This document shows, piece by piece, positions 34,696 to 34,843 of a stretch of 34,970 nucleotides of DNA. Each line of letters opens with the position of its first letter. Within the stretch, counting starts at the first letter, position 1. The notes under the pieces were generated by a model, which made no database searches, was not told the origin of the DNA, and saw only the letters and a program-made list of their open reading frames with translations. The DNA is from Bacteroidales bacterium. Its GTDB lineage: Bacteria; Bacteroidota; Bacteroidia; Bacteroidales; WCHB1-69. Both the position numbers and the translations under genes were made by a program. The stretch is from contig JAEEKL010000257.1 of the NCBI GenBank assembly GCA_016282395.1, positions 1 to 34,970 on the forward strand. Reading direction: 5' to 3'.

Positions 34696-34762
34696 CTGAC
34701 AGAACAAAATGCCAAAATGTCAGTGCTTTTTTCCTTGGAAATCACTGGCATTATATTTTGGC
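34696..34762. promoter_or_regulatory. Nested inverted repeats upstream of dnaK (candidate activator-binding site)
   Basis: CTGACA-N16-TGTCAG (34696-34723); GCCAAAAT (34711-34718) with ATTTTGGC (34755-34762); CAGTG (34721-34725) with CACTG (34743-34747). Confidence 0.55.
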
Positions 34763-34774
34763 ACAGTTGTTGCA
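34759..34774 (+). promoter_or_regulatory. Sigma-54 (RpoN) -24/-12 promoter upstream of dnaK
   Basis: TGGCACAGTTGTTGCA: matches TGGCAC-N5-TTGCW with GG-N10-GC spacing; about 70 nt upstream of dnaK ATG. Confidence 0.75.
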
Positions 34775-34843
34775 ATAGATGTCCGCGTTCAGCAATGAAC
34801 TGCGTAAAAATCAAGATTGTTTAATAATTAAAATCATACAAAA

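Follow-up and report, generated by a model that had tools for sequence, protein, structure and literature searches.

Sigma-54 is mostly associated with nitrogen, flagella and cell-surface functions. In Flavobacterium psychrophilum, start-site mapping has placed a -24/-12 promoter class, SM4, at groESL, lon, dnaK, grpE-dnaJ, htpG and clpB, and mutagenesis has confirmed the contribution of the motif at one SM4 promoter, other than that of dnaK (PMC9723704). The available part of that study lists a bEBP-lptE operon near groESL and counts three enhancer-binding proteins (bEBPs) in the species, with no activator assigned among them. It describes the SM4 set as induced by blood agar, osmotic stress, plasma and freshwater, with heat shock unnamed as a condition, and a further class, SM5, whose promoters also contain a TTG element (PMC9723704). 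Furthermore, in the part available, a 2025 survey predicts sigma-54 control for GroEL, GroES, IbpA, GrpE, DnaJ and DnaK in Bacteroidota (PMC12316311).

That dnaK is under sigma-54 control in this group is therefore not a new finding; what does appear to be new is the phased site for an activator, together with the protein that probably serves as that activator, both described below. The initial annotation of this DNA had called the circuit little described. This holds for the site and the activator, of which our search of the open literature found no report, but not for the chaperone start sites, which have been published (PMC9723704), or for sigma-54 control of these genes, which has been predicted (PMC12316311), as far as the available parts of both papers go. 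That search covered the openly searchable articles, and neither TGNCA-N3-TGNCA sites in helical phase nor a bEBP dedicated to chaperones turned up in them; likewise, no named regulator of Bacteroidia chaperones was found in the searchable literature.

The window, i.e., the whole stretch of 34,970 nucleotides that was analysed, is contig C58 of a draft genome of 2.52 Mb that is 69% complete. The dnaK gene is cut by the end of this contig and the bulk of the remaining gene lies on contig C169. The features upstream of it are collected in Table 1.

Table 1. Coordinates of dnaK and of the features upstream of it, numbered from the first letter of the window.
Feature	Position	Strand	Remark
Extra half-site TGACA (CTGACA arm)	34697..34701	+	CTGACA-N16-TGTCAG arrangement in this genome only
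Conserved palindrome TGCCA-AAA-TGTCA, proposed bEBP binding site, centre -69	34710..34722	+	Genus and class conservation, class phasing
Nested inverted repeats (GCCAAAAT/ATTTTGGC, CAGTG/CACTG)	34711..34762	.	Mostly unconserved
Extra half-site TGGCA (CACTG arm), between palindrome and promoter	34746..34750	+	Lineage-specific
Putative -24/-12 (sigma-54) promoter of dnaK, TGGCAC-N5-TTGCA = TGGCACAGTTGTTGCA	34759..34774	+	Perfect consensus
Predicted +1 of dnaK	34785	+	Sigma-54 geometry, 12 nt past the -12 C at 34773
Predicted 5' untranslated leader of dnaK	34785..34843	+	From predicted +1 to ATG
5' end of dnaK (HSP70)	34844..34970	+	Pfam HSP70, E 1.7e-16

Elsewhere in the window, positions 2-10531 of the reverse strand hold a type I restriction-modification locus with HsdR (running off the contig), HsdS and HsdM. 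Also encoded among the Hsd subunits are a Fic-like protein (PADLOC PDC-S04), a dGTPase-type protein (PADLOC dGTPase, E 5.8e-106) and two proteins that partially match pAgo-associated models, and the locus is a possible defence island. On the forward strand, positions 21215-29899 form an ORF of 2894 amino acids with many repeated units, the C-terminal part of which resembles, by eye, a type IX secretion sorting domain.

The element TGGCACAGTTGTTGCA had been annotated as a near-perfect sigma-54 promoter, and a letter-by-letter check found its coordinates and its GG-N10-GC arrangement to be right. It lies 85 nt upstream of the dnaK ATG (34844), with GG at -24 and GC at -12 separated by 10 bp, the arrangement by which sigma-54 promoters are recognised. 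Perfect TGGCAC-N5-TTGCW occurs only once in the 35-kb window, at this site, and the chance expectation of such a match in the 290-bp intergenic region is ~0.0001.

Conservation was assessed at two levels. The genus sample comprised 41 genomes, in 31 of which the 5' end of dnaK was found, and the upstream regions were examined in 30. Nine of the ten genomes without the 5' end were searched again with a longer DnaK query; as DnaK is missing or truncated in these nine assemblies, they were considered uninformative and rejected as counter-examples. Several genus MAGs at 84-99% estimated completeness, five in number, have no dnaK, and contigs may break unusually often at this gene, which in the present genome too is split between contigs. 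The phylum sample comprised 239 genomes, with dnaK located in 237, and the upstream regions of 58 dnaK genes from the class of the present genome, taken to be Bacteroidia on the basis of the named loci, were compared with those of 37 from other classes.

A -24/-12 element was found 83-98 nt from the ATG in all 30 genus dnaK upstreams, against an average of 1.2 in dinucleotide shuffles. At the class level, every one of the 58 genes scores at least 8/9 on the sigma-54 consensus (GG and G fixed) at 42-103 nt before the ATG, where about one match would be expected from shuffles. The expectation that GG/GC would be conserved in relatives was borne out in part: GG and TTG are invariant in genus and class (30/30 and 58/58), but the -12 C varies, giving TTGC, TTGT or TTGA.

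This variability at -12 is what might be expected if the GG/TTG element were a variant read by sigma-A or an ECF sigma factor, with RpoN uninvolved, and the available part of the F. psychrophilum study reports a TTG element in SM5 promoters as well (PMC9723704). Against such a reading, the fixed spacing from GG to TTG together with TGGCAY is a hallmark of sigma-54, and the SM4 -24/-12 class of that study includes dnaK, its motif being backed by mutation at one SM4 promoter (PMC9723704). The sigma-A element TAnnTTTG is absent upstream of dnaK here and occurs in just 2/30 genus and 1/58 class upstreams, and a sigma-A promoter for dnaK was rejected. Overall, recognition by another sigma factor appears very improbable, and we regard the dnaK element as almost certainly a sigma-54 promoter, judging from its sequence and its conservation.

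Control by HrcA and CIRCE was rejected as well. In the sample, HrcA turned up in 137/179 genomes outside the class but in none of the 60 within it, and no CIRCE repeat was found before dnaK with up to 3-4 mismatches allowed, which agrees with the remark in the initial annotation that HrcA is often missing in this group. Lack of HrcA is not by itself a predictor of the circuit, because some other families without HrcA also have no sigma-54 element at dnaK.

Upstream of the promoter lies a second conserved element, the palindrome TGNCA-N3-TGNCA, present in 30/30 genus dnaK upstreams (0.18 in shuffles). Perfect copies were found in 44 of the 58 class dnaK upstreams, with fewer than 0.2 expected per set, and among named groES upstreams the -24/-12 element is present in 26/26 and the palindrome in 19/26, again with fewer than 0.2 palindromes expected. 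Outside the class, 13/37 dnaK genes reach a promoter-like score, and none has the palindrome upstream of such an element; five dnaK genes from other classes were seen to carry sigma-54-like boxes without a phased palindrome.

The palindrome is embedded in the nested inverted repeats described in the initial annotation, and these were all confirmed letter by letter. CTGACA (34696-34701) and TGTCAG (34718-34723) are separated by a gap of 16 nt, GCCAAAAT (34711-34718) pairs with ATTTTGGC (34755-34762), which overlaps the -24 box, and CAGTG (34721-34725) pairs with CACTG (34743-34747). In the genus, CTGACA-N16-TGTCAG and GCCAAAAT/ATTTTGGC are each found in 1/30 and CAGTG/CACTG in 10/30. The nested hairpin was therefore rejected as a conserved element, its outer arms being private to this genome or to a subclade, and on comparative sequence grounds it is a local elaboration of the short conserved palindrome TGCCA-AAA-TGTCA. 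A further near-palindrome, GGTCAA-CCC-TTGACC, lies at 34679-34693, in the gap that separates the flippase gene upstream from the dnaK element; it was seen in this genome alone (1/30 genus members) and was likewise rejected as a conserved element.

The repeats might instead form an RNA or DNA hairpin, i.e., a terminator, attenuator or thermosensor, and not serve as a protein site. Their arms can fold (single-strand DNA z = -2.0, with 6/200 shuffles equally good), which by itself is weak evidence, and several groES palindromes precede a T-run, a possible terminator of the upstream gene. At dnaK, the hairpin lies upstream of the predicted start and so outside the mRNA, its outer arms occur in 1-10 of 30 relatives compared with the TGNCA-N3-TGNCA core in all, and phasing with respect to a promoter would be unexpected for a hairpin. 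This explanation has very little probability, less even than that of another sigma factor, and a protein site is preferred.

The position of the palindrome relative to the promoter is informative about what kind of protein that might be. Distances of its centre were counted from the predicted start, 12 nt past the -12 position. For class dnaK genes the centres fall at -45, -55/56, -76, -87/88, -98/99 and -107/109, with one at -120, and for named groES genes at -65/67, -75/76, -86/87, -98 and -106/109, with a single outlier at -143. The overall class positions, -45/-55/-66/-76/-87/-98/-108, correspond to whole helical turns. At a period of 10.5 bp, Rayleigh R was 0.92 for class dnaK and 0.80 for groES; the combined value was reached by 0/5000 uniform draws, a figure whose literal probability is limited by the relatedness of the sequences, and 0/5000 was likewise obtained with a thinned set in which each combination of family and distance was represented once.

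Two tests of the phasing are more independent of relatedness. Firstly, the 14 class dnaK upstreams that lack a perfect palindrome all contain a copy with a single mismatch, no more than 1 nt away from a predicted position: at -45/-46 in one family, in all seven of its members, and at -55, -67, -86/87 or -108/109 in the others. A rough calculation (25/65536 per position over ~97 positions) gives ~0.04 such copies per region by chance. Secondly, 194 class genomes were scanned without bias, with any spacing over 31 bp permitted; there were 35 matches, compared with 2 for a reversed control pattern. The 30 scan loci examined include ~20 dnaK genes, four hsp20 genes, htpG, grpE, clpP and a DegP/HtrA-type protease, and their spacings peak at -45, -55/56 and -66. 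Three scan loci lie in or near unrelated genes, at -64, -51 and -63, and none of the clearly off-phase loci precedes a chaperone gene. Within the genus, the dnaK palindrome is found at -67 to -69 or at -54 to -60, which differs by ~2 bp from the class phase, and the genus set taken alone shows no sharp period.

An activator that touches RNA polymerase needs a dyad site that always faces the same side of the helix. In class dnaK and groES genes the dyad lies upstream of the -24 box on a fixed helical face, as in the upstream activating site of a bEBP. Because the dyad has been kept on one face across the class, the palindrome is very probably an activator site.

The dnaK promoter had been suggested to be under the control of RpoN and a bEBP, provided that both exist in the genome, and both do. 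The rpoN gene is an intact ORF of 507 amino acids (Sigma54_DBD, E 9.3e-45), and a single canonical bEBP was found in this draft genome. The latter is an orphan of ~408 residues with an N-terminal AAA+ sigma-54-interaction domain (PF00158, 224.6 bits), a C-terminal Fis-type HTH (HTH_8, 45.3 bits) and no receiver or sensor domain. Its alignment contains the conserved GAFTGA loop and Walker motifs (GESGSGKE), and PF00158 with these motifs, together with the DNA-binding HTH, places it among the bEBPs. A linker of ~100 residues includes the conserved stretch REILYKVLFDMKKD..ELKKLV. The protein was rejected as a PspF equivalog, as it scores 268 bits on TIGR02974 against a cut-off of 443.55 bits; it may work like PspF, yet it is not PspF.

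Orthologs of this bEBP are present in all class genomes sampled. In almost every named Bacteroidota locus the next gene is lptE, and in 26 named loci groES-groEL lies ~2-4.5 kb downstream. In six genus genomes of 95-99% completeness in which the dnaK element is retained, one bEBP was found, and this sole bEBP is the ortholog beside lptE. Given that sigma-54 promoters need a bEBP, the lptE-linked protein is by elimination the likely activator in single-bEBP genomes, and these genomes together with the gene linkage suggest that it probably binds the palindrome.

Alternatively, the promoter could be a sigma-54 promoter whose palindrome is bound by some other activator or by a repressor, the lptE-linked bEBP regulating something else, e.g., envelope genes. 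Genomes with several bEBPs do exist, repressor sites can be palindromic too, and the constant neighbour of the bEBP gene, lptE, is an envelope gene. Nevertheless, phasing over -45 to -109 suits an activator reaching RNA polymerase and not a simple repressor, no second sigma-54 activator was found in single-bEBP genomes with the dnaK element, and groESL lies just downstream of the bEBP in the 26 named loci. We consider a different binder unlikely, and find it likely that the dnaK promoter is sigma-54-dependent and driven by the orphan bEBP that would also drive a set of chaperone genes.

The extent of this set in the present genome was sought by pattern searches. There are 17 perfect TGGCAY-N5-TTGCW sites, of which only four are intergenic and correctly oriented, namely those of dnaK, groES, htpG and secG-tig. 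The idea that other chaperone genes would carry the same promoter and motif was fully upheld at groES, which has the palindrome TGACA-ATT-TGTCA at -97, but only half upheld at htpG, where the -24/-12 element is kept in 26/26 genus upstreams and the palindrome in 1/26. The htpG gene without a palindrome is the weakest point of a single-activator model: either half-sites of degenerate sequence are enough, or htpG has another mode of activation. The secG site, on contig C222, is a perfect -24/-12 element ~75-80 nt upstream of secG, which is followed by tig (trigger factor), and this promoter would tie secretion and nascent-chain folding to sigma-54.

Two other sites were noted during these searches. 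A clpC-type gene (contig C10, 3790-3805) is preceded by TGGCATAATTTTTGTA overlapping TACATTTG, such that a sigma-54-like box and a sigma-A -7 box use the same bases; owing to this overlap with a sigma-A-type element, TGGCATAATTTTTGTA was not counted as a sigma-54 site. At five flavobacterial groES loci the TGNCA palindrome sits within a hairpin followed by a T-run, and it may thus also serve to terminate transcription of the gene upstream.

Taken together, the promoter, the palindrome and its phasing, the gene set, and the conservation and linkage of the bEBP are supported by comparative sequence evidence. The proposal that dnaK is under RpoN/bEBP control has likewise gained support from the conservation of the promoter, the presence of rpoN and the bEBP, and the sites at groES and htpG. 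In the mechanism that we propose, RNA polymerase with RpoN would sit on the -24/-12 element as a closed complex, and the orphan bEBP encoded before lptE would bind the TGNCA-N3-TGNCA site as a dimer and, from the correct helical face, open the complex through ATP hydrolysis. The same protein would drive groESL and htpG and, depending on the species, also grpE, hsp20, clpP and htrA, acting as a heat-shock-type chaperone regulator of the class Bacteroidia, where HrcA/CIRCE was not found.

We infer that the signal would be heat or unfolded protein, and that the circuit would in this way depend on heat. How the signal might reach the bEBP can be guessed from regulators held by a partner, for which PspF-PspA and sigma-32-DnaK are precedents: by analogy, release from a chaperone or another inhibitor holding the bEBP inactive is the most economical guess, with the conserved linker of the bEBP as a candidate contact for the inhibitor.

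We therefore favour, with fair though not strong confidence, a general picture in which one orphan bEBP, found class-wide and often beside groESL, is the dedicated master activator of cytosolic chaperones through phased TGNCA-N3-TGNCA sites and sigma-54, with the chaperones possibly holding it inactive; this would be a third design of the heat-shock response beside sigma-32 and HrcA. If true, the chaperone switch of the Bacteroidia would be a single protein with a precise DNA site, and sigma-54 would be the main chaperone sigma factor of a dominant group of human gut bacteria. The scope of the class takes in gut Bacteroides and Prevotella, oral Porphyromonas, and fish and soil flavobacteria.

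PspF-type bEBPs consist of an AAA+ domain and an HTH without a sensor domain. The candidate activator resembles them in having the AAA+ sigma-54 domain directly at its N-terminus and a Fis-type HTH at its C-terminus, and differs from them in its ~100-residue conserved linker (REILYKVLFDMKKD..ELKKLV), its score below the NCBIfam PspF cut-off and its other target genes. The SM4 promoters of F. psychrophilum share with the present system the -24/-12 element at chaperone genes and a bEBP-lptE pair near groESL; the present analysis proposes, for the class as a whole, a phased palindrome together with a candidate activator, whereas neither is assigned in the available part of that study (PMC9723704). 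The predicted Bacteroidota sigma-54 regulon is enriched in GroEL, GroES, IbpA, GrpE, DnaJ and DnaK, but in the part available it rests on enrichment of a promoter matrix, with no enhancer site or dedicated chaperone activator (PMC12316311). Finally, control by HrcA/CIRCE and by sigma-32 shares with the proposed circuit the targets dnaK, groESL and grpE, whereas here these genes would be activated by sigma-54 and a bEBP, in place of repression or an alternative sigma-70-type factor.
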